Shown: piece by piece, positions 29,568 through 56,940 of the stretch
Layout of the letters: every line of letters starts with the position of its first letter
Position numbering within the stretch: the stretch's first letter is position 1
NCBI RefSeq assembly: GCF_042453785.1
Contig: NC_091673.1
Location: forward strand, 14,541,501-14,605,500
Reading direction: 5' to 3'
DNA: 64,000 nucleotides
From: Malus domestica
Lineage: Eukaryota > Streptophyta > Magnoliopsida > Rosales > Rosaceae
The notes under the pieces: model-generated
The model's input: the letters and a program-made list of their open reading frames with translations, nothing else
What the model was told of the DNA's origin: nothing
The model's database searches: none
Made by a program: the position numbers and the translations under genes

Positions 29568-29643
29568 TGAACTTTTAATTTAGTAAAGTAAAGAAAATCA
29601 ATCGACGACATCAAACAAGCATGCAAACAAAAATCAAAGGGTG

Positions 29644-30264: not shown

Positions 30265-30914
30265 TTCGGCCTACTCCTCACTGAAAAACAGTATAAACCA
30301 TCATCAAGGACTTGTAAGTAAACGGATCATGGCGTCTTAACATCAGATCCATCAAACTTACGAAATTAAGATCAAAATACAACAGTTTGATGATAAACCT
30401 TCATGTGAGAGTAAGAATACTCAGCATTCCCACTTCAAATTACTGTATAACTAATGAAATTGCATTCCTTCCATTATATAACATGAGCTGACCAAGTGTT
30501 TTCTTGTTATTATACAATTTAACTATGAAATTCATCGAATGGACCGCCTAATCTCTCCTTTTGTTTTGTTTTTTTGTATGAATATGCATTACCTATTCTT
30601 TCTTGCTATTCCCAAATCTATGTTTAAGCGTTAGTTTCTTAGCATTACCACAATTGTTTTAACATGGTTAACATCTTGTGAGCTTTACAAGTTAGCGCTA
30701 GTGTCTTGCCCTCGAACTTGTGACATCTTCCAACATTCAAAACAAAATTACCACTAGCTGGTATTGCACAACAGCGTTTCAAAAATACTATTCGTGAACA
30801 TTGTTGTATATAAAAAAAGTCAACTTTAAGTAGAAGTAGTACTATCTACACACTCATTTTTACCCTTCTCCCACACCCCTTATTAATTCTACCATTTAAT
30901 CTTCTTTAATTCAT
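30175..30914 (+). repeat. Duplicated GLN2 exon 1 / leader intron segment
   Basis: Near-identical to 27174-27893, with scattered substitutions and small indels, including a short extra piece near 30706-30740. After 30914 it jumps to sequence matching 28552 onward. The copy therefore carries an internal deletion of about 660 bp relative to the parent. Confidence 0.92.
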
Positions 30915-30999
30915 TTGATAGGCATATGTAAGGAAAGGAAATAAAGTATAGTTTTAATGCTTGGTCAAGGTTATATATTGCATTGTAAAGTAATATATT
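30915..30999 (+). repeat. GLN2 upstream block, copy 2 (cut by the gypsy LTR)
   Basis: Matches 28552-28640 up to taatatatt, then the gypsy LTR begins at 31000. It contains the uninterrupted site aaagtatagttttaatgc, which in copy 3 is filled by the MITE at 54869-55080. Confidence 0.9.
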
Positions 31000-33900: not shown

Positions 33901-34148
33901 AAATACCTCTCATGTGAGTTTATCACAAGTATGACCTCCATCAAGTTAAAATTAAACATGGAGCAAGAAATAGTACCAAGCCAAAGTCAAATGCCAAAAC
34001 TAAATATTAGTGGGTTTTATTACAAATATACCCGTTAATTTCATTTGACAAATGAAGTGGTACAAAACCACGAAAGCTTTTCAATAGTCATCCAACCATA
34101 AAGTTTTCTCATAAGGCACAAAGCCACTCCAAATTCAAATGGCACAAA

Positions 34149-35962
34149 TGAAGGAAATCTTTTGGGAAAACATGTTCATTTGAGCAACATCATATAGCAT
34201 GCAATTAACAATTAAAGGCGGAATCATGCTTACATGTACTCAAAAACAAAACATGACCATGAAATTCAAAGCCTAGTAGATTGGTGAACCAATAATCAAC
34301 TCAAAAACAAAGTGAGTTGAAATTTACCTTTGTAGATTCCTCTTTGCATAAGCAAAGGCTAATCACCCAAAGAGATAGGGCCTTCATTCCTTGCTTCTTA
34401 GATCCATGGATTTGGATGGAAGAATAGGTTCTCCAAGTTCCCAAAATTGAGAACCTCTAAGTCTCTACACCAAGGAGAGATTGGATGATGAATGAGTGAC
34501 CTTGGAGGATTAGATGACTAGCTAATCACCTCCAAGGTGTTGGCCTCTTTAGAGAGAAAATGGAGAGACAATTCTCACCCATTTTCCCCAAAAATAAACC
34601 CTTATTTCACTTAATGAATATTTAGTTATAAAGTCATTTATATAGTCACTTCTTTAAGTGACCTAAATAACCAAACAACCCTAATTCATCTTCATGGCCG
34701 GCCATATAGGGATTTATGGGCTTTTGGGCTTTAATGAATCTTTATTCATTAAATTGTCATACAACTTAAGTTAATGGGCTTGACGTTCGAAGCCCATTGG
34801 GCCTTAAGGTCCAAAACTATCCCGAAGTCTTTAACGAACTTATTCGTTTGATTAATTAACATATTAATTAATCCTTGCCATAAATAATTAAACCATTCAA
34901 TTAATCTTACTCATTTCATTTATTTCGTCCATCTCTACCTTACACGGTGTACGATCCATTAGGTTCCTTTTAGCGAGGTAGTGGGCGATTAAAACCATTT
35001 TACATCGATTGTGAATTGAAACTATTTTCAATTCTCCCTTTAGTGATTACACACGTTTAGGGCTTCCACAAACCATGAGTGACACCTAGCCGTATGTCAT
35101 GGTTACCCAAGCTAATCAGAAGAGGTGGAGAACCTATTCAGTCTGGGATTACAAATGCAATACGGTCTTTCTCTAATCTAATACTCTTGACCACATTGTT
35201 TGGTTTGATAGTTTATTTTCTCATGTCTACTATCCAATGTGTGTCTTGTGCTTATATGATTACCTTGAATGTGATTAGGAACGCATTCCCAAATCTCATT
35301 CATACTCTGGCCAGAGATTCAAATCATATCAGAGAGTATTCTCCTTCAAACGGTTTGAAGGTTAGAGATCCCTTGTTGCGCATTCACTTGTCTCCATAGC
35401 TAAGCGGCTTGACCCCAACGATGCCGTGGACACCCTCCTGGTGGGATGACTTTGACATAATCAAAGATCAAGGTCTTAACCACAAGACAACTATGATGCC
35501 TCAGGTCAAAGGACTACTTTGCATTATCCCAACCATGAGTTCTCATGTGACATGGAATATGAGAACTCTTCGTTGATCGCGTTCAGTGAACTCATTCTCT
35601 ATTGAGCACCTACCGTACTTGTCTTGATGTCACACACACCAATGACTAGAGACTAATCACTCTCCCTGAGAGAAGACATAGTACGTACCGATCTTGACGG
35701 ACTGTCAATGCCCAATTGGCAATCCTATGATCAGGAACGTTTAGGATGTGTCTACGAAAGAATGGTCTCAAGAATCTAACTTCATTAGATTACATTCTCC
35801 CAATCACAAATTCCTTGGACTTTATTGTTTAAGCATATAACATTTATATGAGACGGCTCAAACAATAATGTATGCCCTTTATATGTAAAACTAGATTAGT
35901 TTAACATGTGAAATGTCCGTAAAGTATCATCACATGATTGGCTTTAGGGCACATTTCCAACA
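34149..35962 (-). repeat. 3' LTR of the nested copia-type element
   Basis: The 1,814-bp copy at the low-coordinate end. Its plus-strand 106-residue frame (35079-35399) also occurs in the other LTR and has no known homology to me; I treat it as chance. Confidence 0.94.
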
Positions 35963-38900
35963 ATCTCCCACTTGCACTAGAGCCAATCAGCTTGGTCATC
36001 TTGATGATACCTCTTATGTAGTCATTTCATAAATGGCTGAATAGTAGGCCTAGACAGTGGATATCTATATGTGTTATCCATAGAAGCAACCTTGAGAATA
36101 ACGACGTCACCATTATACATGATTCTCAATCATGTGGTTCAGTCTCTCATTTGTGTTCGGATCTTGATGAGACCTTGATTCCCAGGCTTGAGCTATCGCC
36201 CCATTAGTGTCATACACTTTCTGGTTGGAACCGAATAGAGAGTTCATAAATGAACTTTCCCATCCAAACAACATTGTTGTAAACTTCTATATGGCAATAT
36301 ATCTTGCATTCATAATGGAACACACTAAAGTCATTACTTTAATGTTTCCATCCAAATATCTCTTTAGTCATAATAAAGAGATATCTGTTTATCTCTTCAT
36401 TCATAATGAAGAAACATCCAATGATGAATTAGATTCATAATCTAATACATTTACGTTTCCATTACGTTACTTTGATTCTTCCTCGATCTTTGAGGAATTT
36501 ATCCTTAAGTATTTCTTAAATACTTAAGGACTCACTTGACAGTTGCCATGGTTCTGATCCTGGGCTTGCACTGATATCGTCTTGTACCGTTCTAGGTACA
36601 ACTCATATCAATGTTTTTCATACAATATGAAATACATAAATCACCTTTCTGCGTATGCATAAAGGATTCTATTTACGCATTATTTCTTTGGGAGTCAAAG
36701 AGTACATTCCCTTTGAGAATGGCAACTTGCTAGTCTCACTAGAATCGTCCTTCTATTGAAGTTTATCATCATATGAGAAACTTTCTAGCATCCATTGTCT
36801 ATTATTAGGGATTGATATAATCCAATTATATCATGAAATATATCATTATAGATTTCCATCCCATGTATATAGACTATGTCTCCCATATACATTCTATCGT
36901 TTATAGAATGCTTAAAGTCATAACTTTAACGAAGAAGCTTTCTTTTCATTTCCAAAATTAATATATCATATATATTTAAATTTTTAGGAACATGATTAAC
37001 TCCCACTAATCTTTTGTAAACCTAGTAAACAAAAGATTCATTTACATCTTTATGAGAAATCAAACGATTTGATCCTTTTTCTCATAAAATGCAAATAGCT
37101 CCCACTAACTTGCTAAGATCCATGATGGATGGATCTCTACAACTTACATGTCTTGTGATTCATAGTTTTAGACATATATTATCAAGACTATCTTAATAAT
37201 GGTTTCGGAAACCCATATTATGTCAAAACATTGAATCACCATTTAGTTGTAGCTAGCAATCTTCGAATTAATTGAAACTAAGACTACGTCAAAAATGGTT
37301 CCTTTAAAGTCAACCATTCTCTTTGATTGTAGTCACCTTAAGCTACCAATTAGCTATGAAGGTTTCATTATTTCGAGTCAAATGGTACTTTACCATTTCC
37401 TTGAGTATATATCGTATATGCACTCAATGTAGTCATAAGGATTTTCATTCTTACTTCTTTCGAATTAAGAGGTGTAACTCTATGACATAGTCATAAAGTT
37501 CAAAACCATTCAACTGAGACGGTTTATAAATCCTTATCGACTACCTTGGAGCTTGTGGTATAGGAACTAGGTTGTTATATTTGTTGATTACTATCTTGTC
37601 TCTCAAAGAACCCATTCTTCGAGTTCTATCTCTCGTTCATTTGCTTTTAGGCAAATCACATTGTAGAATTACAATGAACTACCCAACAAAACAACATTTG
37701 TTAGTTGGTTTATAGAAGCGATATCCAAAAGTTATTTTAAGGATATCCTACAAGATTGTTATCTAACAAATATTGCTTATTAGCACACAACCCCAAATCT
37801 TTAACATGCTTAAGATTTGTCTTTCTTTCCAACTACATCTTATGGAGTCATGAAAATATTGGAAGATCTTCTCATTGACAATCATATTGTTTTAGAAGTA
37901 TATATCCTATATATGGGTAATTGATAATATCTAACGAACTAAATCTTATTCGAGTTCGTTCTTCTCCTAATGGAGAAATACATTATCTTATGATGCTATT
38001 TTCCTTGATATCTTTCAAGGAAACTTATCTAAAGTGTTACCTTTCCTTGGATCAAATCTAAGGAGGTAAATACTTTAGATGTCTTACTCATCAACTTACA
38101 TTACTTGAATTCTTTGAAACATTTTGCAAAGTATTCGGACTTGTGTTTATTCAAAATAAACTATAGTCCAACCGAGAGTGATCTTCGGTGAATGTTATCC
38201 AACATGAGTAGTATTATGTTTGTGGACAAGTGCCACTAACATCTAAGTGAATTAACCTCAACAACTTTGTGATTCTTTCTTCTTTCCAAAAGAATAAAGA
38301 TTCGAACATTTCGCCTCCATACAATTTTAACAAGAAGATATTGGATCCGGATCTAACGATCCAAAGCGTCCATTTATGACCAACTCGTAATTTATGTTTT
38401 AGAGGTATCACAACTTTAGTTGGGATTAGTCACTATCTTGCAACCTTTTGGGTTTTAAGCATCATTATTTTCTAAACAGTTAACACCACCATATTATCTC
38501 TACTATAGAGATAATTAATTAGATTACCATAATCCAATCATTGATTAATAAAGAACATTGTTTTGTCAAACAAAACATTTATCCATTTCACATAGTGACG
38601 GAATTTAGTTCCTTAAAATTGGAATATAAAGACAATCTATGTTTTTCCAATTTCTTTGGTAGTTCATATGAGGAAGTAAGTACCATCTGCTTTCGCAGAG
38701 ATCTACATTTGATTCACGCTTCGAATGTGAAGTACTTTCTCTTCTCTCATTTATCTTCTACTTCTTATTAGTCACACTTTTACAACGATTTGTAAAACAT
38801 AGTTACTAATACGGAATCAAGCATTCAAGTAGAAGAACCAACTGTTTTGAACTATTCAAGAACAATTTACAACACCTTCGAAAGGTGTGTTCTTGACACT

Positions 38901-41900
38901 TGCAAGACATTTCTTGCAAATACTCCTTCCAATATCCATCCTTTCATAAAGAAAGTTTGTTCCCTTGGAGTTATTAATCTTCTTTATCTGACTTCTCCTT
39001 TTGACTACAATAGTCATGGTCCCTAAACTCCCACTATCTCTCTTGAAACCTTTTTCAATTGTGTTATACACATCAAACATTTTGGAGAGAGTGCGGTTAT
39101 TGTTCACTACACAGTTTACAATAAACTTAGTGAACGATTAGTATAGGGAAACAAAGGTGAAGTCCTTGCCTAGTTTCCGTCTCATTAAGTGGTTTTATCA
39201 CTTCAACACTTAATGATTCAAAATCATTATAAATCCATGTTAATGGACTATTTTTGTCAACCAACCATTATGTTCTAAACATAATTACAAACTTTAAAGA
39301 GTTGTACAAGGCAACTCTTATTTCTTCACACAACAAATTGTAAGTGAAGAATCATGGCACATAAAGTGTCCATGCCTTTGTGCTTTCTTCTCAAGTTCCT
39401 TGTTCATGTAACAAAGAAACAAGCACTAAGTGTTTGCATTGACTAAGGGTTGTTCAAAGCAACTCCTATTTCTTCATACAACAATTTGTAATTGAAGAAT
39501 TATGACATTAAAAGTGTTGTCCTCTTTATGATAGACCTTTTCTAACATATTCTTCTAATGATACATTATCAATAGGAAGATTGTGAGGATGAGACTACTT
39601 TGGTACTTTTACAAGCCATTAAAGACAATCTATGGTTTTGTAGTACCAAGTCCGTAAACTAAACGTTCGGTTTTGTCAAGTGTTGGATAGCGTTTGCAAA
39701 TATATTGGTAATCAAATACATAACGAATATAAATTGATTGATTTTAAGCCATTTGATTTGGGTCTTTAAATCAAATAGCACCACCCACTATTTTTGGCAA
39801 ATTCCATATCCCTCATAGGAATTCGAGAGTTTTGGATGAAACTCCTAGTAGGTTATGGGAGGCTCACTATTACCAAGCCCACCTCACGATGATACGATGT
39901 ATGGCTAGCAACAATAATAATGAGAGAGTACGCTTACTCATTTGCAACTAATGCAAGTACCCATCTTATTTGGCCTCTAGAGAATGTCACCTCACAATGA
40001 TATGATGTTGGCTCCATTTCACTTAGTTAAGTTCTTCCCACCATGCTTAGTGTGTGAAGGGGTTCAAGAATAGCCTCACGATGATACGATGTATAGCTAT
40101 CCTCGTTGCCTACACTCACCTCATCATATGTATATGGATTCCTCCTGAGTATAAGCATGCACTTTGTACTCCCCCATGATAGGGTGAAGCCGGTGTACAA
40201 GTCATAAACGATTGGATCCCACCACGGTGGAAGGCCACGAAGAGATATTCTAAACATCTCTCGCTTATCAACTTAATATTGGTTTGGTTGAGGGTTTTAG
40301 GTCTCATCACATATAAACATACATTTTAATCTCTATTAAAACTATTTTGGTCCTATAACAACTATTGGTCCATCCCTTTGTTTTAGTTGTACATAATACT
40401 CCCACTATGCTTTTAAAACGATTTTTAAAGCAAGAGTATATGATACTACTAACATAAACTTTGCATTCATTTGATGGACTACATAGTTGCCTTAGGGCCT
40501 AAGGATGATTATGAACCTTTGTTTAGATTCAACATGAGCCTTGTGTTGAACCTCGGTCTAGGAATGAAGATTGATTTTAGTTACGCGTTTAATCACATTA
40601 AGGCGTGTTGTCTTATGGGCGTTGGACCCAACTACTTCATTTTCATGCATATCGTATAAAGCAAGAAAGAAGTACTTCAAAGTAAAGGTGAGCTTATGCT
40701 CATTACAACATTTGCATATAACAAATTACTTTAAAGTAAAGAAGAGCTTAAGCCCTTTTACAACATTTGATCAAATCAAATTACAACCAAAATTTAATCT
40801 ACACATTCCCATGGTTCAAACAAATTTGAAACGCCTTTCACATAGCTCAATTATATTAGGCTTAGGTTCATAATCACCCTTTAATTAATTAACACTTTAA
40901 CTAATTAATTGAATGCAACATTTTCATTTGGTTTTTGTATCCATAAGATTGATTTAAATGGAGCTAAACAAAATGAAAATCCAATTCTCATTTAAAGAGA
41001 CAAAACAATTTTGTTCTCATCCTATTTGGGCCATCTTGCAATTAACCTCAACTTTTGGGCCATATTGCAAATACAAAAAACTTTTGGGGTCACTTTGTAT
41101 AATACACAAAAGTCACAACTTCATGTAAATACAACTAGAACCCAAACTTTAATCAATGCAAAAACTTCATTAAAGGAACAAAACAATTTGTCCTTTAGCG
41201 TTTTTGGACCTAAACGTAAAAACGTAAACTTTTGGGCCAAAGTGCAAATACACAAAAGTATCAAAACTTTATGTAATTGCATAAAAGCCCCAAAAGTACT
41301 CCCTTTGAGGGAGTGGCCGGTTTTAGGGGAAGATAAGGTGGGAGTGTGTGTTGATTTGTGAGTTTTGTCAAAATCAATCATGCAAGTGTATGTAAGATAA
41401 GTTTATGAAATAATTCAATCACAATTATTTCAATCATCATTTGTACAAATATCTAACACTTTAAATACATAATAAATCATTTAAAAACATATCACATAAA
41501 CTTTATGAAATAATTCAAAACTTTGAATCAATACACCAAACCTTTTTGTTCTTGGCAAGAACATCAAGAACAATGAAGAACATCCATGAAAAACCCAAAT
41601 TTTTCCATGAACTTTTTCCACCCAAAAACATTCCAAAACCATTCTTACTTAAGGGAAATAACATCTAACCAAACTAGGGTACTTAGGGGTTCCAAAGAAC
41701 ACATTAAAACACTTTTAACAAGTCAAACAAGAATCCAAAAATCCACCCTTTGGATTTGGCCGAATTTTCCCAAAAGCATGGCACCAAATTTTAGCTCCAA
41801 TATTCATGCTCATATGAACAACATCTACAACATTTGAGATAGCAAATTTTCCAACAAAATTTACTTTCAAAGAAGCAAGAATAAAGCTTGTAACAATTAC

Positions 41901-41978
41901 AACTTTTAAATCACAAACTTATGAACTACAAAACACAAAAGGATTCACCAACTACTAGACCTAGGCTCTGATACCACT
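35963..41978 (-). pseudogene. Decayed copia gag-pol interior of the nested element
   Basis: No long frame survives, but scraps on the minus strand fit copia order. Near 38860-39110 there is a degenerate zinc-knuckle neighbourhood ending in KKCLASVKNTPFEG. Near 38214-38300 there is an integrase-like ITKLLRLIHLDVSG. Near 36050 there is a DPLSRPTIQPF scrap like the RNase H tail. The leader side (39880-40110) has three copies of a motif like ctcacgatgatacgatgtat. The coding region looks far older than the LTRs. Confidence 0.6.
41964..41976 (-). promoter_or_regulatory. primer binding site of the nested element
   Basis: The minus strand reads TGGTATCAGAGCC, complementary to initiator Met tRNA, next to the 5' LTR end at 41979. 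Confidence 0.92.
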
Positions 41979-43792
41979 TGAAGGAAATCTTTTGGGAAAA
42001 CATGTTCATTTGAGCAACATCATATAGCATGCAATTAACAATTAAAGGCGGAATCATGCTTACATGTACTCAAAAACAAAACATGACCATGAAATTCAAA
42101 GCCTAGTAGATTGGTGAACCAATAATCAACTCAAAAACAAAGTGAGTTGAAATTTACCTTTGTAGATTCCTCTTTGCATAAGCAAAGGCTAATCACCCAA
42201 AGAGATAGGGCCTTCATTCCTTGCTTCTTAGATCCATGGATTTGGATGGAAGAATAGGTTCTCCAAGTTCCCAAAATTGAGAACCTCTAAGTCTCTACAC
42301 CAAGGAGAGATTGGATGATGAATGAGTGACCTTGGAGGATTAGATGACTAGCTAATCACCTCCAAGGTGTTGGCCTCTTTAGAGAGAAAATGGAGAGACA
42401 ATTCTCACCCATTTTCCCCAAAAATAAACCCTTATTTCACTTAATGAATATTTAGTTATAAAGTCATTTATATAGTCACTTCTTTAAGTGACCTAAATAA
42501 CCAAACAACCCTAATTCATCTTCATGGCCGGCCATATAGGGATTTATGGGCTTTTGGGCTTTAATGAATCTTTATTCATTAAATTGTCATACAACTTAAG
42601 TTAATGGGCTTGACGTTCGAAGCCCATTGGGCCTTAAGGTCCAAAACTATCCCGAAGTCTTTAACGAACTTATTCGTTTGATTAATTAACATATTAATTA
42701 ATCCTTGCCATAAATAATTAAACCATTCAATTAATCTTACTCATTTCATTTATTTCGTCCATCTCTACCTTACACGGTGTACGATCCATTAGGTTCCTTT
42801 TAGCGAGGTAGTGGGCGATTAAAACCATTTTACATCGATTGTGAATTGAAACTATTTTCAATTCTCCCTTTAGTGATTACACACGTTTAGGGCTTCCACA
42901 AACCATGAGTGACACCTAGCCGTATGTCATGGTTACCCAAGCTAATCAGAAGAGGTGGAGAACCTATTCAGTCTGGGATTACAAATGCAATACGGTCTTT
43001 CTCTAATCTAATACTCTTGACCACATTGTTTGGTTTGATAGTTTATTTTCTCATGTCTACTATCCAATGTGTGTCTTGTGCTTATATGATTACCTTGAAT
43101 GTGATTAGGAACGCATTCCCAAATCTCATTCATACTCTGGCCAGAGATTCAAATCATATCAGAGAGTATTCTCCTTCAAACGGTTTGAAGGTTAGAGATC
43201 CCTTGTTGCGCATTCACTTGTCTCCATAGCTAAGCGGCTTGACCCCAACGATGCCGTGGACACCCTCCTGGTGGGATGACTTTGACATAATCAAAGATCA
43301 AGGTCTTAACCACAAGACAACTATGATGCCTCAGGTCAAAGGACTACTTTGCATTATCCCAACCATGAGTTCTCATGTGACATGGAATATGAGAACTCTT
43401 CGTTGATCGCGTTCAGTGAACTCATTCTCTATTGAGCACCTACCGTACTTGTCTTGATGTCACACACACCAATGACTAGAGACTAATCACTTTCCCTGAG
43501 AGAAGACATAGTACGTACCGATCTTGACGGACTGTCAATGCCCAATTGGCAATCCTATGATCAGGAACGTTTAGGATGTGTCTACGAAAGAATGGTCTCA
43601 AGAATCTAACTTCATTAGATTACATTCTCCCAATCACAAATTCCTTGGACTTTATTGTTTAAGCATATAACATTTATATGAGACGGCTCAAACAATAATG
43701 TATGCCCTTTATATGTAAAACTAGATTAGTTTAACATGTGAAATGTCCGTAAAGTATCATCACATGATTGGCTTTAGGGCACATTTCCAACA
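41979..43792 (-). repeat. 5' LTR of the nested copia-type element
   Basis: The 1,814-bp copy at the high-coordinate end, with the same length as its partner and one visible mismatch. Confidence 0.94.
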
Positions 43793-44405
43793 ACAAAGCC
43801 ACTCCAAATTCAACTGGCATGAAGCCATGACAAGTTTCAAAGGGCACGAAGTTGTATCAAATCTCAATGGCACGAAGCCGTACCAAGTATCAAAGGGCAT
43901 GAAGCTGTAACAAGACTTAAATGGCACAAAGCCACGTATTGCTCTAATGGCTCAAAGTCCTTGCCCACACGAGCTAAAACTGCACTAGGCATCAAATGCT
44001 CCAATGGCTTAAAGTCCTTACCCGCAAGAGCTAAAACTGCACACGGCATCAAAAGCTTCAATTGTTCAAAGTCCTCGCCATCACGAGCTAAAACTGCACA
44101 AGGCATAAAGCCCCAACAAATACATCATGAACTACGAGTGACTTGATCCTTCAATGATGGTACGTAGGCAATCTAGGGCTAAACCTAGGTGTAGTTGCAA
44201 AATCAAATAAACACCTAAATCCCCAATTTATGATTTATTCATATTAGAATCAAAGGGTATTCCTTTCCCATTAATAGGCGCATAGCCTAGAATAGGTTGA
44301 ACTCAAATTAATAAAACCCTCTTCAAAAAAATGAACGAGAGTGAAATTGTGTCGAGTGAAATATTTGTTTACATATTGTGTACAATTTTTGCTCAACATG
44401 ATTTT

Positions 44406-44423
44406 TGGCACGCCCAGTAGGAC
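44406..44423 (+). promoter_or_regulatory. primer binding site of the gypsy element
   Basis: The sequence tggcacgcccagtaggac lies eight bases after the LTR end and resembles the primer site of Tat-lineage gypsy elements. I did not assign the tRNA. Confidence 0.65.
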
Positions 44424-44495
44424 CCATTTTCCGTTTCATCTCTAAATTCGAAGATAATTAATGTGCTATGTTTTTGTTTTTTGTAAACAGGAAGC

Positions 44496-46253
44496 ATGGC
44501 GCCACAAGTTACTGTTTACTTCCACGAACTCCCTGCTGTTGAATCCAAACTTGGATGTGGAAGGCGTGCTAGTCGCCGAATCATCTTCACCATCAATCAA
44601 GCACCAACTAACTGTAGCATGGTGAAGACGAAGGTAGCGACAAAGACATGCAAGGTGGCTGTCAAAGTCATCAAAGATGGGCCGAAGAAATGCCCATCCA
44701 AGAACGCCCTAATGAATGCAAGGAAAAGATCGACATGAGCTCTTAGGAAGAAGATCGCTAGGGAGCATTTACTCAAAGACATCGAAATTGTCTCAAGGGA
44801 GCTTCTTAGAGCTGTTTCATCTAAGGACACCATGGTGCCTCAACGCAAGATTGTCAAAGTGACATCATCACCGCCTATCAAGGTTCCTGTCATCACTCAA
44901 ATTATGATCGAAACAATCCCAATCACTTTACATACAACGGAGTTGGTCATGATGACCTTTGTTGAGGAAGATGGAGAAATCCTACCAATAGTGTCCGAAA
45001 ATGTTCAACAAAAGGCCAAGGCCTATGAACTTGTCGAGGAAGATGACAACATTCAATTCGAGGGGCCTATTATGCGTACAAGGGCCCGAGCATTGACAGT
45101 CCACTCTCCTGAGAGTTCATCTTCCATTGGAGACACTTCTGGAGGAAACAAATCTTTTTCCCAAGAAGAGATTCCTAGAGTAATGACTCGATTCCAAAGG
45201 TTGGAAATAAATGAAAGCATCGAATCTAAGAACATGCAAGTTCTGATGACTGGTGCATCAAACACTGAAGAACAACTGCTAGAAATGTAATGGAAACTAG
45301 CAGAAAAAGAAGCAGAAATGGCATCTTTGGTGGCTGATAAGGAAGCGAAAATTGTGACTTTAGCAGCTCAGTTAACCCTGCAAGCTAGCATAAATAATGT
45401 TGGACATAGAGCAAGAAAAGAAACAGAATGAGAAAGTTTCGTAGCCAGCTCACGCATCAAGATATCAATGCAATTTTCACTAAAAAGATCAGAATTTCAA
45501 ATGTCTTTAACGACACCAATTCTCGGATACCAGAAGCCTTATCCAGCTCACTATGACACAGTGCCATTTCCCCGAGGGTATCAAAAACCAAGCCTTGATA
45601 AATTTGATGGTTTGAATGGTTCTCCCTAAGAACACTTAGCTCATTTTTACTCAGCTTATAGGGAAACATCACAGTCAAATCCTTTATTGGTTCAACAGTT
45701 TGTTCAGTCACTCAAAGTGTTTGCTTTCACATGGTACACTCAGGTAGAGCCATGATCTATTCTAACGTGGGATGATATGCAAAGAGCTTTTCTAGCTCAA
45801 TTCGTCAATTCAAAGAAAAAGGCCACGTTAATGAATTTGGCTCAAACGAAACAAAGGCTTGGAGAAAGCGCGATCGAATTCATCACAAGATGGAGGAGTC
45901 TTAACCTACAATGCATGGAAAAGATTTCTGAATTTTCTGTAGTGCAAATATGTTATAACAATCTTATCCCCGAGATTGCAACATTTGTAGGAATTGCAGA
46001 GCCTCGAACATTTGACGGGTTGGTATATAAGGCAAGTAATGTGGAGAAGCAAATGTCCCAGAAAAATGTGATTGGAAAGATGATCCAAGACTTAGAAAAG
46101 AAGTCTGACACCAAGAAAGGAGATAACAAAAGAACGCCGAAGAAGGGAGATTCTATGGTGACATTTGTCAAAGTAGACAAGAAAAATGACAATGCAAAAA
46201 GAAAAGAAGAAACCAAAGGGATGAGGAGGTTTTCGCTTAAGGAAAGAAAATAA
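44496..46253 (+). pseudogene. Gypsy gag, interrupted
   Basis: The frame begins MAPQVTVYFHELPAVESK, basic and Lys-rich, with a stop at 44736-44738. It re-opens through an acidic linker (to about 45290). The gag core is then recognisable: LVQQFVQSLK, AFTWYTQVEP, WDDMQRAFLAQFVNSKK, QRLGESAIEFITRWRSL. These match the retrotransposon gag domain of Tat elements. At least three stops interrupt it. Confidence 0.82.
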
Positions 46254-46472
46254 GTTAAATATAGTTTCGATGATGAAAATGTTGGAACCATCTTCGATTA
46301 ACTCCTTGCACCAAAGATGATCATGCTTCCTGAACCAAAGTGTCCCGCTGAAGTAAATAAGACTGATGATGCAAAGTATTGTCGGTGTCATCAACTCATC
46401 AACCATACGATAGAGGATTGTTATATCCTTAAGGATATAATTTAAGAGAAGATCAACAAGCACAAGATCGAG

Positions 46473-47930
46473 GTGGATTCATCCTTGAAACATCAAACGG
46501 CAATGTCCAACATGATCGAAGGAAAATCAACACCCTCTTCTCCATTACCAAAAGGGTCAATCCCTGTAGGATTCCATGTCGATAATGAAACCACAATTGT
46601 CCATGCTTATCCTGGCATGCCTCGTTTCAGAAATCCAAAAATTCTAACTTTGTACGAGCTCATGACAGCACCAAGTTTTGATGTTTGGGAGGATTCGTCG
46701 GAGTCATCACTCGAATCCGAAGACGAGTGGCAAACTGTTAGAGAAAAGAAGGTGAAAAAGACCGCTAAACGTCTTTCTTCCATAAAATGATCAAAAGAAA
46801 AATTATGGAGTTGACCACTCTCAAAGGATAGAAAGAATAAGAAGAAAAGTACTCAAAGAAGTATTAGAGTCTTTCAAGATGATGAGTACAAGCAGCCTTT
46901 CAGAGCACTAATAACCCTCAAAGACTACCTCCCTCCAAAACTTTTCAAGAGTAAGATAACCGAAGAAGAAATTGGAAAGTGTCGTGCAACCTCATGTGAA
47001 ATCCATAACGATGATGAGGTAGATGAAATAACTTTAGGCTCTGGTCAAAAGATCCCGTATGAGAATGAAAAAGGATGTAAAGAAGCAGTTGATTCAGTCA
47101 ATCATTTTGACAATCCAAGTGCAAGAAAGGTTCCAGTCACTACCACTGTAGAGCTTGCGGTAGAAATTTCAGTCTCAACCACAAAATCAAGTACCTTTAA
47201 GAGACATGCAAAAGATGTACTACAGTCCTAAGATGGCAAATACAACATCGTCGACCATTTTAAGCTCATCCCATCTCTTCTCAGTGTGTACGATGCTCTG
47301 AAAATGTCAAAGGAGCTTAGAGAAGCATTCATCGCTTCTTTGACAAGTCCTAAAGTATTTGAAACAAGCTTCAAATTTGTAGAAGTGGATACAACGTCGC
47401 CAAAGTATTGCGCTTGCTGCCTCGCAAGTATCACATTTGACGAAATTGACCTTATACTTGGATACGAGTATCATAATCGGCTCTTGTACGTCAGTGGACT
47501 GGTAGGAGATACATCAATAAATCGAATCTTGCTTGATTGTGGATCAGCAGTAAACCTGCTTCCTCTTCGAACACTTCGAGCTTTGGGGATGAATGTTCGT
47601 CAACTGACACCGTCAATGCTAACTACTCAAGGCTTCAATCAAGTGGGACAAAAAGTAATGGGAACGATAACGTTACAAATAGAGATATGAGAGTTGTACT
47701 CCGACGCCTTTTTCCATGTAATCGATGCTGACACATCTTACCGTGTTTTATTAGGACGTCCATGGCTTCATACATATGGTGTCGTTCATTCTACACTCCA
47801 TCAATGCTTCAAGTTTTTGGTGAATGGCGAAGTCAAGAAAGTTCTAGTGGACATCAACCTATTTAGGGGTGAAGAAGTGAATTATGCAGATGCAAAATTC
47901 TATAAACAGTCAAAAGTCACTTTTTCATAA
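46473..47930 (+). pseudogene. Gypsy protease region, interrupted
   Basis: After a gag-pro linker, the 47286-47690 frame carries the retropepsin-like segment ILLDCGSAVNLLPLRTLRAL. The active-site triplet that is normally D-(S/T/G)-G reads DCG. It is followed by LTPSMLTTQGF and, in another frame, by RVLLGRPWLHTYGVVHST, which is typical of Tat proteases. Stops and one frameshift separate the pieces. Confidence 0.8.
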
Positions 47931-48775
47931 CCAACAAAAGATGTAGTGGTGCAGAAGGAATCACAATCACCAACTGTGGAGAAGGCAAAGTCGTCGAGGC
48001 TAGTCAAAATTACGGTTCTAAAACTCCAAAATCCAGAAAAGTAGTTCTCAACTGCTCATTAAAAGATCAAAGAGAACTTGAAAATAAGGCAATGGAGCAA
48101 ATCCAAAATGCATTTGAAGAGCTCATGACCAGCTACACGAAGCTTCTGCGCAGAATCAACCAATCAATTCTTGGAGGCAATTTGATAGTCTCAACAAATT
48201 TGCAAATGAATAATGGTCGACATGGTCGCATTGTTTCGTTCAACGGAAATGAGTCCTCATCAAAAGTTCCATTCAAGATAAAAGTGAAGAGGCATTGAGC
48301 TAAAAAGAGTGCTATCAATGTCACGGTGCACCAAGAAAATGGCATGCTCAAAACATTTGTCTCAGAAACCAAGAATCATGAGTTGGAAGGCTTTACTGAT
48401 CTCGAGAAAGCAATGTTGACTAGAGAAGAGTCAAATAACAAGCCACCTTGAGTTTCTGTCTTCTAACGACTTGGTAAAATCACTAACTCTCAATCTAAAA
48501 TCTCATAAAAGCAAAAAGTGGAGAGTCAAAAGCCAAAAGGTGACGATAAACAGAGACAAAAATGATGACGCACAAGAAGAAGTACAAGACGTTGTTCAAG
48601 TTAGCATGGTTGGTATTAAAGAAAGAAGCAAGGAAGCTCATAATGAGCCAGTTGCACCTGTTAGACAATTCCCCACCTATTTCCTGTCAAAAAGAAATAT
48701 GGGCAAAGTCATACTTGCGCAAGCTTCAGAGCCATCAACAAAGCATCGCCACTTCTAGAAAGTGAAGCTTATGGA

Positions 48776-50790
48776 ATGGATGAGGAATCAAGCACAGAAA
48801 AAGAAGTTCATAACGTTGCTAAAGTAAATTGTGTCACCATTGAAGATGAAAAAGAGGGGAATGGTGACAAATCAGTCAAGTTTATTGACAACGCTCAACC
48901 GACACCACCTCAAATAGAAAATGGGGGGCAAGCCACTATGGTTAAACTTCGAGAAATCAATCTCGGAACAAATGACGAGCCCAATCCTATATTTGTAAGT
49001 TCCTTACTAACACCGGAAGAATTAGAAGATTACAGATGTCTTCTCCAAGATTACCGAGATATGTTTGCATGGGGTTATCAAGATATGCCTGGTCTAGACA
49101 CTAAGGTGGCAGTTCATAGATTGGCTATATCAAAAGAAAGACGTTATGTTAAATAAGCACCACGACATTTTCAACCTGAGCTTGAAGTACAAATTAAGGC
49201 TGAAATTGACAAACTGATAAATGTTAGGTTTATCAGAAAAGTTCAGTACCCTACATGGCTCCTCAGTATTGTACTGGTAAAAAAGAAAAATGGACAAATT
49301 CGTGTCTGCATAGATTTCAAATATCTTAATGACACATGTCCAAAAGACGAGTTCCCACTTCCAATTACTGAATTATTGGTAGACGCCACAACCGGTTTTG
49401 GGGCTCTATCTTTCATGGATGGATTCTCAGGGTATAATCAAATTAAAATGGCACCTGAAGACAAAGAACTTACGACATTCCACACTCCGAAATGAGTCTA
49501 TTACTACATTGTAATGCCGTTTGGACTAAAAAATGCAGGAGCCACATACCAAAGAGCCATGATCGTCATTTTCAGCGATATGTTACATAGCACCATCGAA
49601 TGCCATATGGACGATCTCATCATCAAAACAAGAAAAAGGGAACGTCATTTGAACGACTTAAAGAAAGTCTTTAACAGACTCTGAAAACATCAATTAAAGA
49701 TGAATCCTTTGAAATGCGCATTTGGAGTGACATCTGGAAAATTTCTTGGCTTTGTGGTAAGGTACAGAGGAATCGAAGTTGACCCTTCAAAAATCAAGGC
49801 AATCGTGGAAATGTCTCATCCTTGAAACCTGCGAGAGCTACGAGGACTGCAAGGAAGATTGGCATACATTAGGAGATTCATCTCAAACTTATCTAAGAGA
49901 TGTCAACCATTCACGAGGATGATGAAAAAGGGCGTGCCTTTCGTGTGGGATAACACGTGTTAAAACGTTCTCAGCAGCATTAAAGAGTATCTTTTGAAAC
50001 CCCCAGTGTTGATGGCTCCAATTAAAAGGAAACCCTTAATTTTGTATATCGCAACACTTGAACGCTCATTGGGGGCAATCTTGCACAAAACAATGAAGAA
50101 GGAAAAGAAAATGCGCTCTACTATTTAAATCGAATGCTTGTAGGGGCAAGGCAAAATTACACCCCTATCAAGAAGATTTGTTTGGCTTTAGTCTTCGCTT
50201 ACAAAAGCTACGACATTACTTAGGGCTGGTTTGGTATTGCTGTGCTTTGAAAAAAAACTGCTTTGAGAATAACCGGCTGTGTTATGAGAATAAGCGGTTG
50301 TGAAATAAATCAGCAGAGTGTTTGGTAAACTTTTTTGTAAAAGTGCTTTTGGAAAAAAAGGTAGTCTGATAGTGGGTCTTTTCATTAAAGGAGCACTGTA
50401 GCTTTGTGTGCTTTGAAAAAAAGCCAGTTTTCTGAAGCTGCAAATAGCAGCTTCAGCTTTTTCCTTTAATTTCAACTTATTCTCACAGCAGCTTCCAAAA
50501 TAAGCCTTTTTTTTTTAGTTTACCAAACACCTAAAACTCTCACAGCTTTTTTTCATGGGTGTTTTTTTTTAAGCACCTTACTCCCAAACCACCTCTTACT
50601 GTCACACAATATTACTTTGATATCTAAAGCGGACCTGCTCATATACTTGATGTCAAAACCAATGCCATCCGGTCGTCTTGCAAAATGGTTTTTGCTACTA
50701 TTGGAATTTGAAATCAAGTATGTCTATCAAAAAGCTATAAAGGGATAAGCACTAGCTGATTTCTTAGCAGCTCATCCTATTCCCAACAAC
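48776..50790 (+). pseudogene. Gypsy reverse transcriptase, split by a MITE
   Basis: The linker LLTPEELEDYRCLLQDYRDM leads to RT: VKKKNGQIRVCIDFKYLND, CPKDEFPLPITELLVDATTG and FMDGFSGYNQIKMAPEDKEL. The catalytic motif reads HMDDLIIKT, where Tyr is usual before the MDD, then LGFVVRYRGIEVDPSKIKAI. Near the RT-RNase H boundary the frame is cut at 50222 by a MITE and resumes at 50599 with SKADPLIYLMSKPMPSGRLA. Several point stops are present. Removing the MITE by eye restores the local frame, so the MITE entered later. Confidence 0.88.
50223..50595. mobile_element. PIF/Harbinger-type MITE, 373 bp
   Basis: Ends are GGGCTGGTTTGG and, in reverse complement, GAGGTGGTTTGG. The flanks are a 3-bp tta duplication (50220-50222 and 50596-50598), the size and sequence typical of PIF/Harbinger. 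The interior is rich in gctttg/cagcagc words and has no coding capacity. It sits inside the gypsy RT-RNase H region. Confidence 0.88.
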
Positions 50791-51162
50791 ATGGAGTTAC
50801 CGAGCAATTTGTCAGATGAAGAAGTATTCTCAACATACATTTCTCAATGGCAACTTTACTTCGATGGAGCGGCAAGGAAAAAAGGCACAAGGGCAGGTAT
50901 TGTGTCCATCCCACCATGTGGGGGCCTAATCCCGTATTCATTTTCACTCATGGAGTTATGTTCAAACAATGTGGCAGCATACGAGGCACTCATCATCGGA
51001 CTTGAAATTGCACTCGAACTGCATATTGATTACCTTCAAGCTTATGGTGATTCACAATTAATCATCAAGCAAATGAATGGTCAACACGTCGTGAAAAATG
51101 AAAATCTAACCTTGTATTATGAAAGAGAAATTTGTAACTTGGCTCGACTACGTATAACTTGA
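50791..51162 (+). pseudogene. Additional RNase H domain of the gypsy element
   Basis: A 123-residue open frame with WQLYFDGAARKKGTRAGIV, ELCSNNVAAYEALIIGLEIA and AYGDSQLIIKQMNGQHVVK. The DG, E and D residues expected for an RNase HI active site are present (YFDGA, YEAL, YGDSQL). A second RNase H after RT-RH is a known trait of Tat elements. The frame stops at 51162, where the integrase would normally follow. Confidence 0.85.
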
Positions 51163-51881
51163 TCATTCAAAAAGGGTACGTAGGCAGCCTATCATCAAAA
51201 ATTGGTGTAGTCATAAAATAATAATAATAACAAAAAAAGTAAAAAAAAATAATTCCCAAAAATCAAGGGATGAACTACGTTCAACTTGATCCCTTTACAG
51301 GGTACGTAGGTAGTCTAGTTTTATTACTAGATACAGTCGTAAAAACTATTTTCCCAAAATCAAGGAATGAACTACATTTGGCTTGATCCCTTCAAACAAA
51401 CCACTCAAGCTCTATTCGACCAGATTCCAAAAGGTTAATAATGGGATGCAAAACATCAAACACCAGATTCACTTCATCACGACAGCCAAGAATTTCTGTA
51501 GGTGAGTTGCAAGAGGAAAGTTTGACAAAAATATTCTTTACTTCACTAATAATATATCATTGCCTAAGATGATGGGACAACTTCATCTGACACATAAGCA
51601 ACTGAATTCTCCCCGTAAGGTTGGTTCATCACCTTTGCATGCAAAGATGGTGTAATCGAATTTTTAGACATCACTTCTGAAGTAAATTACCTGCATCAGC
51701 AACAACTACAGTTTCAATATCCACACCACTAAGATCATCAAGTTTCTCATAATGAGCACGCTTAAAATTCTCATCATGGCTACTCCCTAAAGAAGACTTT
51801 GGTGAAAAAGATGATAACCTTGCACTTCTTGTCAGCTATTGCATTCTTGTTTTTAGAAAGACCAGAACTCTGACCAGTTTG
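51163..51881 (+). other. Gypsy spacer with LTR-like repeats; integrase absent
   Basis: Three imperfect copies of a motif (gaactacg..cttgatccc... ggtacgtaggcag..cta) lie at about 51147-51210, 51270-51330 and 51368-51400. A similar motif occurs in the LTR at about 44130-44190. No HHCC or DDE integrase motif is readable in any frame. The integrase appears to have been deleted. Confidence 0.6.
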
Positions 51882-53756
51882 TCACAATCTAAGACTCTCA
51901 CCAACTGGTCGCAAGCTAGGAGACTTCTCAATTCCCACTTCAGAAAGCAAAACTTCTTTTCTCAGACCTGGGGATATGTCTCTCAAGACTGACACAATAA
52001 AAATTGTCTTTTTATTAAAAGGACATTTATTGAAGATAGCGTAAATATTGGTCAAAGAAGTCCCAAGATATGTTGCACAAGAGGTCCTCCACCACTTGCA
52101 ATTGCAATACCAATATGTACAGGTTCCTTGATGAGTTGAGCGTGGAACATAAAAAAGAGATTCAGTGTTCCTCCTAAGAAGCACAACCTGCGCTTCGAAC
52201 ATATCCTCAACACTACAATTTTGTCTACTAGAAACACCAAATGCTAATTTGTTCGCTGGAACCCCTTGATCGAAGCCAAATTGACGAGCAAACCTATTAG
52301 GAAAATATGGTTCTATCCAAAGGTGTTCACCAATTTTGACAAGAACCTTTGCAGTGCGAACATAGACCAACAATTCAAAATGGTCATCAGATAAGTCTTC
52401 ATTATCCATCAAAGAACAACCTTTCTCTTCCACAAAAGCAGTTGGGCGATAAATAACTGATTTTTCACTACGGAAAATAAACCTTGCATAAGATATACTA
52501 ACCTTCCTGGGTTCAATACACGCATATCTCGCTAAGGGAGGATAACCCTTAGGAAAATCACTGTCAGGACGAGGTCGGTATAAATATGGAAAATGCTCCC
52601 CTAACCAACCAACAATATAGTGAACCGGCATGGAAGTATATGTTGATCCAGGCCCCCTCGGACAAGAAGCAATATTCCCAAGGCCATGATAAATATAGCC
52701 AAGAACAGTGGGCGCAAGAGAGACTTTAGAGCCTTGTGCCATCAAACAAGCCATGGGGAAAGTCTCGGGCCTCATTCTACTACCCTTTAATGGCAAAACA
52801 AATCTACAAAGCCAGAATTTTAAAAATGCAGCCAAGGCCCCTTGTTTCGTGACTTCCAGTGGGATTTCTTGGACCTTAAAAATCTTTTGCTCATTCGGGA
52901 ACATCCGTTGATTTTCCTCACCATAACCCACATAAATTATTTTTCCTCGATAAAAATGAGCCAACCATTGATCCCAAAATTTTTGTTTCTACCCATAAAA
53001 CTTGCACATTTGGGAAATGAACTCTCAAGAGTTCGAAAAAAGTAGACGGGTACACTCTTTCTTGCACAAGTCATGATTTGAAGGAATAAACTCTTTGTAA
53101 GGAGCACCAAGAATTGGTGAACCACCTATAACCTTCAAATCATATAATGAAATACTCATCTCTCAATTTCCCTGATGGAAGGTGATGGTTAAAGGACCTT
53201 ATAACTCACAAAAAGCTTTCCATACATTGGATGAGTATCCATAAGGATAACAAGACACTGCCATAACGCCATAAATATCTGCTTGACGCAGCATACTTGC
53301 ATAAGTTCATAGGGTAGCCTCTGTCCACTCTAGCACACCAACCTGAAAAGTAGCACAACCTGTGACTTTGACATCGGAACCCCATTATGTCTTCTCCCGA
53401 ATCATTTTGTGTAGAAGCGGAAAAAAATCATGGTCAACCTTAAACTTGGTGTCTCCATTAGCCTCATTGTTCACTTTCATCAGAATATAGGCCTGAAATA
53501 AGTCGCCTTGATTCCGAGCAACTTTGATAGCACCATCTTCTGAAGTAAAGTCAAGATGACCAGAGTTCACTTTAGAAGGGAGAAACCAAGTGGGAGGATC
53601 ACCAAAAGATAGATTGTAGTTAAGTGAAGCCAATGGAGAAGAACTCTTATACTCTAGACCCGTGGCAAACTCTTTTCCGTCCTTGTCAACAGCTTGCTGG
53701 ATACAAATTTTTCCATTTTCATTCATTCCCTGAAATATAAAATGCGGGTCAACAAA
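51882..53756 (-). pseudogene. Antisense plant-mobile-domain (PMD) ORF of the gypsy element
   Basis: On the strand opposite to gag-pol, two long frames (53385-53756 and 51882-52964) with a stop-interrupted bridge encode a PMD/aminotransferase-like protein. Readable in order are FGDPPTWFLPSKVNSG, EWTEATLSTYASMLRQADIY, VSCYPYGYSSNVWKAFCEL, EMSISLYDLKVIGGSPILGA, AALAAFLKFWLCRFVLPL-type (printed GALAAFLKFWLCRFVL), TVLGYIYHGLGNIA and GWLGEHFPYLYRPRPDSDFP. The domain occurs in host MAIN/MAIL proteins and in transposon-borne ORFs. Antisense extra ORFs downstream of pol have been described in Tat elements. The upstream end is lost at 53757. Frame breaks lie between about 52970 and 53385. Confidence 0.75.
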
Positions 53757-53848
53757 AGTGGGTGATGGGCAAAAAGATTTGTTGGCCTTTCTTTCCTTAG
53801 CCGATAGGGTTGCGGATGTGTGGAGGAAAATAGTTTCTTGTCCCTTTA

Positions 53849-54783
53849 GACCATTTTTAACCATGGGCTAAATGTCAAATTCCCCCTTATCCCCCCCTCC
53901 CAAACCTAACCTAACCCAACCCAAGCCAAATCTTTGGGCTAAAAGCCAAACCCAAGCCAAATTCCCCCCAAAATTTAGCCCATGATTCGATGTGGGCCTC
54001 ACCGAAATGAGTGAAACTCGGCGTCTGTGCACCAATCCCCCCCCCACCCACTCGCCTGACGCGCGCGACGCTCTACCCTTTAGACAGACAAGGCCCCACC
54101 CACGTGGGCCTGTCGGCCACCTTTCCCAGGCGTCCCAATGGCTACTTTGATCCGACGATCGCGATCAATAGGCCGTTGGTTGATCCAATGGCCTAGATTC
54201 AAATTTATATTTTTTTTGTTTTTATATTTATATATTTATTGAATCCAACGGCTGAGATCGAATATAATCAAATCTAATGGTAAAAAAAAAAAGATCTAAC
54301 GGCTCAAATTTAAATCCAAAGACTAAAATAATTAAAAAAAATTATTTAACTCAAAATTTACCAAAAAACTCTATAAATACCTATGTATTTGTTCAAACAT
54401 CCATACAAAATTCACTTTTCTCCTACAATTATTCCAATTTTTCTTTCTACCATTTCCAAATTTTGTGTTTATACATCTATATCATGATTTTCATATTCTT
54501 CCATAGTGTTTCATGAGTTTCATATATGGATGTAGTAATTTTTCAATATTTATCGGAATTTAAATATTTTTAGATTAAAATGTTCGTATAATTAATTTAC
54601 GATAGTCTACATAATTTTTTTTAAAAGTAAATTTAAGAAAAAAATTAGCCTAAGTTCATTCTTTAATAATCCCGGGCTAAAATTTTAGACCAGAAGGGTT
54701 GGAATAGAAAAACTATTTCTGAGCTAAAAGCTAAATTGTCCGAGCTAAAAAATTTGGCTTTTAGCCCAACGTTGGAGATGGTC
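53849..54783. mobile_element. PIF/Harbinger-like element, 935 bp, non-autonomous
   Basis: The left end gaccatttttaaccatgggc and the right end gcccaacgttggagatggtc are imperfect inverted repeats, flanked by tta (53846-53848 and 54784-54786). The empty site ccctttagaggctccaag is present in copy 1 at about 28496. The interior is pyrimidine-rich on the left and AT-rich on the right, with no coding frame I can support. Confidence 0.85.
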
Positions 54784-54868
54784 TTAGAGGCTCCAAGAGA
54801 ATGGCTTTGGATTATGTGAATATTTATGATAGGCATATGTAAGGCAAGGAAATAAAGTATAGTTTTAA

Positions 54869-55080
54869 AGGAAAACTAATGAAAAAGGCTTGAAAACTTT
54901 GAGTTTTAATGATAATGACAAAATAAAGGGTAAAGTGAATAGTACCAGGATTGACTTTTTAGTGTAAAAATGTGGTTTTTCGTTAAAGTGAACAGTACCA
55001 GGTGCTTTTCGTTAAAGTGAACAGTACCAGGTGCTTTTCGTTAAAGTGAACAGTACCAGGTGCTTTTCGTTAAAGTTCCC
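54869..55080. mobile_element. MITE, 212 bp, with a 29-bp minisatellite
   Basis: The ends aggaaaactaatgaaaa and ttttcgttaaagttccc are imperfect inverted repeats. The flanks are a 9-bp duplication tagttttaa (54860-54868 and 55081-55089). Empty sites are visible in copy 1 (about 28590) and copy 2 (about 30946). Inside, a 29-bp unit (gtgaacagtaccaggtgc + ttttcgttaaa) is repeated three times between about 54988 and 55073. The 9-bp size suggests a Mutator-type origin. Confidence 0.88.
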
Positions 55081-55131
55081 TAGTTTTAATGCTTGGTCAA
55101 GGTTATATATTGCATTGTAAAGTAATATATT

Positions 55132-56400
55132 TGTTGAACAACAAAAAAACTGAAGATGAATGGAAGTAAAGCTGCACATCAAAACCAAAGAGATAAAAAT
55201 ATCTTACCGTTTTGTACGAAGACATCAGGCAAGCTTCCAAAGCAAAGAGTCACCACCAAAAGACACTTGCAACAAATCAAGAATAAAAAAAATGAACTTG
55301 TGGAATATTCATTCAAATCCAAACAAAACGGAAAAAATTGAATGAAGCCTTACTGACCGTTCTGTTCTTCTTTTCAAAGAAAATAACAAATAGTAAAACA
55401 ATGGTGCGGGAGAAGCTTGTGCGGAAGAACTGATCAAAAGAAATTCAAAAAAAGGTTTTGAAGAATGTTATTTATCTAAAACTACCAAAATGGGGGAATT
55501 TGAATTGCCTTCTCTGTTAGTCACCTAGTATGAGATAAACCCCTATATAAAAAAAAGAGTTTTGTAGCAAACAAACTTCTCAAAAGAAAATAGGAATGCT
55601 GCCACCCACGTGAAGTCCTGCTTAGACTTGGAAATCCATGTCTACAAGGAGAAGAAACGGGAACTGAAAATAAAAAATAGAAAAAAAGGAAAAAAGAAAA
55701 TATGTATTTCTTCCTACAAAAAAGGGAAAGTAACGTGGAACAAGGGCTTCCTATTTTTTTTATGCAAGACGTGGAAGATTGCACATTTAGTGGGATAGGT
55801 TAAGAGAAAGTGCACAATTAGTGGGAGAGGTTAAGAGAAAGTGGCGGAAGAGATGGCCTCCATCTCCCCACGTAAAAAAACTTTACAGCCCTCCTAGGAT
55901 GTCTATAAATAGGCATCAGCTGCAGTAAGAAAGGAGAAAAGAATAAAAAAATAGGAGGAGGTACACTGCAGAAATTGAGAGACAACAGAGAAGAACAAAC
56001 GGCAGAGATCTTGAGAAAGTTGGAGAGAAATCAAAGAAGTGAACTGCTGCGGAAATTCAACAAGACAAAGGCAAATAGAGAAGAGAATACACGACAAAGG
56101 AAAGCAACAAAGCATTTAAAGGTACAAATCCATCCTTCTAAATCTTTCTTTGTTTGGTTTCTCTCGGTTTTGCAGGAAAAAAAAACAATTTGCTTCTCCG
56201 ACCTCTCCCATTCCCCAACTTTCTATCAAGTTGCAACCCAACAAACCGCAACAAAACCACCACATCCCTCTGCCGCCGCGGCGATATACAATGGAGATTT
56301 CAGCAAAACACGCTGATTGGATTCAACCCAATTTCAAAAGGAAGAACCAATTGCATGGGTGCCTAAAGAAGTTTGGAAGTATGATTTGCGTGGAGGAACC
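55132..56400 (+). repeat. Second copy of the gypsy LTR start, truncated
   Basis: Near-identical to 31000-32244: it starts TGTTGAACAAC and includes gtctataaataggcatcag near 55900. It diverges after ggaggaac at about 56400 and joins block X. Because the same left flank precedes both LTR copies, this is a duplicated segment, not an independent insertion. Confidence 0.9.
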
Positions 56401-56408
56401 AGCAAAAC

Positions 56409-56940
56409 ACGACGAAATCAATTCCGTTGATATATAATAAGGAGTAAGCCCTCTTTTTCTTCATTTCGAATAATCCAACAAATGCTTGGTAATGTTTGTT
56501 GGAGAAAAAGACATTATGAAAATTACACTTTTGGGACCATGGTGTGTCTTTATATAGAGATTTGAGATGCACATTTCAAATGCGATTCCTTCGATCGAAT
56601 GAGATCATATCTGCTGCTATCTGTTGGCTGAGTTTTTCACATGCTTTCCAGCCAAGCTTTGTGTGGTAGTGTGGGAGAGTCTCTTATTAGTCTTGCTAGC
56701 ATCTGCACTTCTGAATCTCCAACAAAGCTCTCAGCTTTTTAAGGTACAAAACAGTTTAAAAAATTTGGACGCCAATGTGATAATAATGTAGTACATGTGC
56801 GCGCCCATTTTGGTTTAGGAAATAGGTTACTTTAATATGTTGGTTGAATGGAAAGAAACTTACATCTGAGACGTTACTGTGATGGTGTTTTAATGTGTCT
56901 AACTTTGTCACATGATAGTTTGATACTGATTTGAGATACC
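56409..56940 (+). repeat. Block X, copy 2
   Basis: Near-identical to 29644-30174. It continues beyond the breakpoint as gtcacaatgacatttt, showing the sequence that the other copy lost when joined to the GLN2 fragment. Confidence 0.88.

Follow-up and report, generated by a model that had tools for sequence, protein, structure and literature searches.

An antisense plant mobile domain gene downstream of gag-pol in three retrotransposon families in Malus domestica

In the genome of Malus domestica, three retroelement families (A, B, and C) carry a gene for a plant mobile domain (PMD) protein downstream of their own genes and antisense to them. Comparison of coding sequences shows purifying selection on the PMD protein in all three families, and the extra gene probably does a job for the element. 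The window, meaning the whole 64,000-nucleotide stretch analysed here (contig NC_091673.1, positions 14,541,501 to 14,605,500), holds a decayed family A copy. Its carrier is a Ty3/gypsy element of the Tat type (Ogre/Retand group), in which the antisense accessory gene lies between pol and the 3' LTR.

An earlier note on this DNA described a PMD-type antisense ORF downstream of gag-pol and took its carrier to be a Ty3/gypsy element of the Tat type. Both descriptions hold. A 368-aa stop-to-stop frame at 51882-52988 on the minus strand matches PF10536 at E 5.7e-23 and 82.1 bits, above the cut-off of 34.9 (hmmscan), gag-pol lies upstream on the plus strand, and in relatives a second RNaseH precedes the integrase. 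The interval given for the gene, 51882..53756, covers the PMD ORF but misses the last part of the remnant. When an open relative is used as the tblastn query, the window PMD gene runs in several pieces from 53738 down to ~51395, and a genome-search match to residues 1-716 has 19 stops within it. The window gene is thus antisense, downstream of a decayed gag-pol, and broken. The features of the window are as follows.

31000..44398, plus strand: 5' LTR, TGTTGA...TCAACA; the LTRs of relatives match on both sides of an insert, with the same LTR end and similar post-LTR sequence
46086..48793, plus strand: decayed gag-protease region (tblastn; DNA match to a relative at 44072-48874)
48794..50787, plus strand: decayed RT-RNaseH, split by an insertion of ~373 bp at 50223-50594
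50788..51126, plus strand: truncated second RNaseH (RVT_3, E 1.4e-8), with the integrase deleted behind it
51395..53738, minus strand: PMD pseudogene with frameshifts and stops, spanning residues 1-791 of the 941 in the open relative at C8:15.10 Mb (tblastn and genome search)
52089..52844, minus strand: PF10536 match (hmmscan), profile positions 106-346, within the 368-aa frame; nucleotide positions derived from residues 49-300
53385..53867, minus strand: open frame with the N-terminal PMD part; a TTTCAG/GG splice-acceptor-like site near 53735 is also found in relatives
55132..56399, plus strand: LTR-like fragment downstream of the PMD gene, lying within 1331 bp that align to the 5' LTR region at 91.9% identity

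The N-terminal piece at 53385-53867 aligns with the N-terminus of the relatives' PMD and gives no Pfam match at E up to 0.1. A single-sequence AlphaFold2 model of the 368-aa frame has a mean pLDDT of 33. Searches of solved structures gave nothing at E up to 1 for one PMD protein, and the top hits of a PMD profile, two fusions of dynein light chain (E 0.26 and 1.4), were no better than chance.

On the plus strand, the window gag matches Retrotrans_gag at E 3.2e-6, the protease stays below the cut-off at E 0.011 (Pfam), and the domain order can be traced only as far as the truncated RVT_3. The match to the relative skips from 51130 to 51147, a jump that reaches beyond the end of the relative's pol frame, and the integrase is therefore missing. 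The right end of the element is rearranged, because the same non-element sequence precedes the LTR-like piece at 55132 and the 5' LTR at 31000, and because the stretch between the PMD gene and the LTR-like piece is unlike that of relatives. The LTR-like piece is probably a duplicated fragment and not an intact 3' end, so dating of the window copy by its LTR pair was rejected.

Nested in the 5' LTR is a young LTR element (34149-43793; LTRs of 1815 bp, 99.945% identical), which has no frame of at least 130 aa between its LTRs and looks non-autonomous. The ~373 bp insertion in the RNaseH region is not in the relative and appears MITE-like by eye. Another insertion of ~935 bp (53851-54785) is not in the parallel copy at 28503-28513, and its ends look like inverted repeats by eye. 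Around both element ends, at 27169-32243 and 53754-56940, there are several local duplications, ~88-98% identical and in shuffled order. Further to the right lies an inverted repeat (57836-58014 / 58899-59077) with 179-nt arms that are 92% complementary and 884 nt apart.

The earlier note considered the window copy broken and its relatives worth examining, and the PMD frame is indeed open in some of them. In the genome searched (651 Mb, 19 contigs), close relatives of the window PMD occur at five further places with 58-84% identity, after which matches drop to 28-35%. Two of these are open and the remaining three are broken. At C8:15.10 Mb, a single open frame (2046 aa in the stretch examined) contains a weak protease match, RT, RNaseH, a second RNaseH, and integrase; after it, on the opposite strand, comes a PMD frame that is open over 941 aa. 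The element at C10:22.69 Mb has LTRs of 3542 bp that are 100% identical and a target site duplication, ATGTT; it carries a gag frame and an open PMD frame of 960 aa and is without RT-integrase. In its gag frame Pfam shows gag only, the protease part being deduced from alignment to the C8:15.10 Mb relative. A young relative has an LTR pair 99.85% identical over the 1311 bp examined. The antisense proteins of the two open relatives consist of the PMD domain, a linker, and a C-terminal part that is coiled-coil-like by eye. They match PF10536 at 133 bits (cut-off 34.9), and their frames show PMD only, with no Transposase_28 (PF04195) match in Pfam at E up to 0.01. At C7:14516342-14532132, a family A PMD gene is found as two matched parts ~15 kb apart, probably owing to a nested insertion.

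A PF10536 profile search of the genome returned at least 118 matches (the best 117 of 1706 candidates were scored). The earlier note had allowed that the ORF might be absent from other members; instead, several family A members as well as families B and C carry it. For families A and B, an integrase lies within 8 kb of 25 of the 111 PMD matches listed (24 elements), and in all 25 the PMD gene is downstream and antisense. Here the distance limit was 8 kb and the best 105 of 9639 integrase candidates were scored; random placement, with four chromosome lengths approximated, predicts ~0.4 pairs. The same holds in family C, where 75 of 98 listed PMD matches have an integrase within 8 kb (best 102 of 9467 integrase candidates scored) and 75 of 75 are downstream and antisense. 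The 98 family C matches were picked by score and length, with 20 dropped (12 genic-looking or unplaced, 3 family A, 5 partial). Among the matches listed, 86 of 111 in A/B and 23 of 98 in C lack a scored integrase in that range, which is no sign that none is there, given how few of the integrase candidates were scored. The antisense layout was read directly at a single locus in each of families A, B, and C, and at two relatives LTR pairs enclose both the PMD gene and the element's own genes. A B-type PMD match shares its strand with a family A integrase 19 kb away (C14:17.64-17.66 Mb); this exceeds the 8-kb limit, and we take the PMD to belong to another element.

The order RT, RNaseH, RVT_3, integrase in a family A relative and in family C places both in the Tat lineage, whose defining mark is an additional RNaseH domain that sits after the first and before the integrase. 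Gag-pol is a single long frame in the family A relative; the family C copy has two frames. PMD frames in family B are, for example, 735-811 aa long, and those in family C mostly 549-603 aa. The genome also has other PMD genes, such as those at C11:30.94 Mb and C3:27.57 Mb, with PF10536 at 361-380 bits. In a tree of 19 proteins, which included no named MAIN/MAIL sequence and in which long branches were flagged, family A groups with B (100/99) and C groups with one genic-looking copy (100/99); the genic-looking proteins, a label given from Pfam scores, do not form one group. Against the genic-looking copies compared, the family A protein has 20-24% identity, and it stands apart from most of them in the tree.

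In each of the three families dN/dS of the PMD gene is well below one. It is 0.21 in family A (two open copies; bootstrap 0.169-0.27, 937 codons), like the gag-protease piece of the same two copies (0.22 over 900 codons). In family B it is 0.15-0.46 (7 copies, 21 pairwise comparisons) and in family C 0.07-0.12 (3 pairs of 3 copies, 441 codons). In the family C pairs, third codon positions differ at 130, 150, and 64 sites, whereas each other codon position differs at 9-27. Open frames were the basis for choosing the copies, a choice that may depress dN/dS to some extent, though hardly to 0.07-0.3. A passenger without function is rejected by these values, and a lack of purifying selection, the other outcome that the earlier note set against its own idea, does not describe these families.

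The anatomy of the antisense gene is clearest in family C. In one element of 13.5 kb within LTRs of 940 bp (99.89% identical), the antisense strand has a TATA box, CTCTATAAATACC, 149 nt before the ATG in ACAATGGCC, and the ATG is in a good context. The earlier note proposed looking for a promoter in the 3' LTR region. In this family C element the TATA box is internal, with 469 bp between it and the 3' LTR, so that location does not apply there; it comes near in family A, where only ~28 bp separate the start of the PMD frame from the 3' LTR in the C10:22.69 Mb element. With up to 2 mismatches allowed, the 20-nt TATA motif has 192 occurrences genome-wide, against 10 for a reversed control. At 66 of 100 places listed it stands 470-478 nt before a family C PMD match on the same strand, leaving unpaired 34 of the 100 TATA places and 32 of the 98 PMD matches listed. 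This co-occurrence reflects recent common ancestry of the copies, not independent conservation.

Past the PMD part, two gaps bounded by GT-AG break the family C coding sequence and were judged by eye to be introns; the donor of the first is common to three copies, and the second was seen in one copy. In family B, GATGTAT follows the PMD part in 8 of 9 copies shown and is a possible, less certain splice donor. In family A, TTTCAG/GG is found in the window and at 6 of 10 loci scanned; of the four loci without the exact motif, L043 and L056 still have N-terminal codons. In one open copy an in-frame stop is followed by three codons and then GG, with no ATG in the next 82 codons or more. In this region 91 codons look mildly constrained (dN/dS 0.21-0.48; 6 pairs, few changes). 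Since a splice-acceptor-like site, a stop just before it in one open copy, and constrained codons that lack an ATG occur together, the family A gene likely has an upstream, spliced first exon. By eye, no shared TATA box, first-exon ATG, or donor could be fixed in four aligned family A copies.

Some derivatives lack pol, the full PMD gene, or both. The pol-deletion junction of the C10:22.69 Mb element (C10:22689800) is common to 9 loci (at least 270 of 281 bp, 91-100% identity), and the pol-less form has therefore multiplied. A full PMD gene is present at only one of the nine. Four of the other eight were examined: two keep 40 and 53 N-terminal codons (tblastn), a third has ~17 N-terminal codons as a DNA match, and in the fourth nothing was seen. 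The whole-genome PMD search missed such short stubs and is silent on small remnants. Among 11 close integrase loci, a full-length PMD lies near three (one open, two with broken frames, one of these 19 kb off). The integrase match is stop-free at these three; the other eight have stops and no full PMD, an association for which age and kinship could be the reason. Three of these eight were examined and have N- or C-terminal remnants, and a fourth, at C13:27.05 Mb, has a C-terminal one. Two copies, one with integrase and one without pol, have the flank of the same PMD deletion, an indication that a form without PMD has been mobile. Because derivatives without full PMD multiplied, the gene seems not to be needed in cis; supply in trans and dispensability both fit.

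As to function, the reading rated most likely, though tentatively and at less than even chance, is that the PMD product is a trans-acting helper in the chromatin or transcription of element copies. In family C, RNA polymerase II would transcribe the gene from its own antisense promoter, and in family A transcription would come from LTR-proximal sequence and include a spliced first exon. The antisense transcript would be spliced, and its nuclear protein product would act in trans. The effect could go either way: counter-silencing, through interference with host MAIN/MAIL-type PMD complexes, or self-restraint. Antisense orientation would keep the introns, which are not spliced from the sense genomic RNA and so, we infer, survive reverse transcription. 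A silencing role is a guess from host MAIN and MAIL1, which are reported to act with PP7L in silencing (PMC7156037, PMC5418596), and MAIN-like action is an extrapolation given the low identity to genic-looking copies and the place of family A in the tree. The anti-silencing or targeting role suggested in the earlier note is likewise hypothetical.

The PMD protein might instead serve the replication cycle, in nuclear entry, integration-site choice, or as a particle or intasome cofactor. This is a weaker possibility: PMD is kept beside the gag frame in a young pol-less copy, and nuclear localisation is reported for GENE23 of Grande (PMC7264820), but derivatives without full PMD multiplied, so that the protein seems at least dispensable in cis. 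Somewhat more doubtful is a fuller form of the helper reading, in which a complete antisense Pol II gene (TATA promoter, introns, PMD) would counter MAIN/MAIL-PP7L by mimicry, its orientation would be selected for intron survival, and non-autonomous derivatives would profit in trans. It would have a parallel in HTLV-type viruses, where an antisense gene is used. An accessory gene whose nuclear role is a different one, or whose target is the host and not the element, is unlikely too; sequence searches gave no solved relative of PMD, as it would allow, and nothing specific counted against it. It is improbable that the antisense RNA and not the protein matters, through dsRNA/siRNA or interference with genomic RNA as a self-limiting brake. 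Such a brake has been proposed for antisense aORFs (review PMC7264820) and suits the promoter-like anatomy in family C, but the low dN/dS and third-position excess in three families are marks of protein selection that RNA alone does not produce. That a host PMD gene was captured just once, or that an unrelated host gene happens to adjoin a dead element, is scarcely credible and was rejected: the genome does have candidate host genes (C11:30.94 Mb, C3:27.57 Mb), but the downstream antisense layout recurs in many elements of families A/B and C, two relatives have LTR pairs around both genes, and in the tree the window family joins retroelement family B.

The earlier note overstated how poorly PMD ORFs in the Tat context are characterised, as they are published (PMC6317226, PMC5418596). 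Neumann et al. (2019, PMC6317226) give the share of Ogre elements with PMD (pfam10536) as 57%, PMD-A clades are described as exclusively Gypsy (Ikeda et al. 2017, PMC5418596), and PMD is given as the most frequent non-canonical domain in one survey (PMC9289625). Ogre elements with a PMD ORF share with those described here the Tat lineage, the second RNaseH between RNaseH and integrase, PMD, and large LTRs; two ORFs are reported for Ogre (PMC6317226), whereas the family A relative has one long gag-pol frame and the family C copy two. In Ogre the two ORFs encode gag-protease and RT-RH-INT and are set apart by an intron-like gap, and the primer-binding site is complementary to tRNA-Arg. By description, the families resemble PMD-A1/A2, Gypsy-encoded and apart from genic PMD-B/C (PMC5418596). 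Retand shares an antisense ORF between pol and the 3' LTR and non-autonomous derivatives, but its antisense domain is Transposase_28 (PF04195), reported in 97% of Retand clusters (Vicient 2025, PMC11963269), in contrast to PMD in the open family A relatives. Grande GENE23 is likewise an antisense ORF, driven by a promoter upstream of it; its transcription and nuclear localisation are reported, with no PMD mentioned in the relevant part of the review (PMC7264820). MAIN and MAIL1 share the PMD domain but are host silencing genes and not element-borne (PMC5418596, PMC7156037). For PMD captured by MULE elements, Ikeda et al. speculate on anti-silencing use (PMC5418596).

A statement that PMD ORFs are specifically antisense was not found in the relevant passages of the literature searched, though the supplements of PMC6317226 may contain one. 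The presence of PMD in Gypsy/Tat elements is itself already established; as far as searches of the open-licence literature show, what is new is how the antisense gene is built, the estimates of selection on it, and the existence in this genome of derivatives that lack PMD or pol. Steinbauerova et al. (2011) reportedly described extra ORFs of Tat elements whose position and orientation vary, and that work may cover PMD orientation.

These families bear on what the antisense extra genes of plant retrotransposons do, an open question according to PMC7264820 and PMC11963269, and on whether MAIN/MAIL derive from elements of this kind or the other way round (PMC5418596). Family C is young, high-copy, and near-identical, with a promoter-like site, introns, and a strongly constrained PMD, which makes transcription, splicing, and partner binding directly testable. 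Its sequences indicate that it has been active very recently. In this burst (C15:40802627-40816141 and others), at least 20 of the 102 listed integrase matches are 100% identical to the query after rounding, and 6 of these, the query included, share the query's score.
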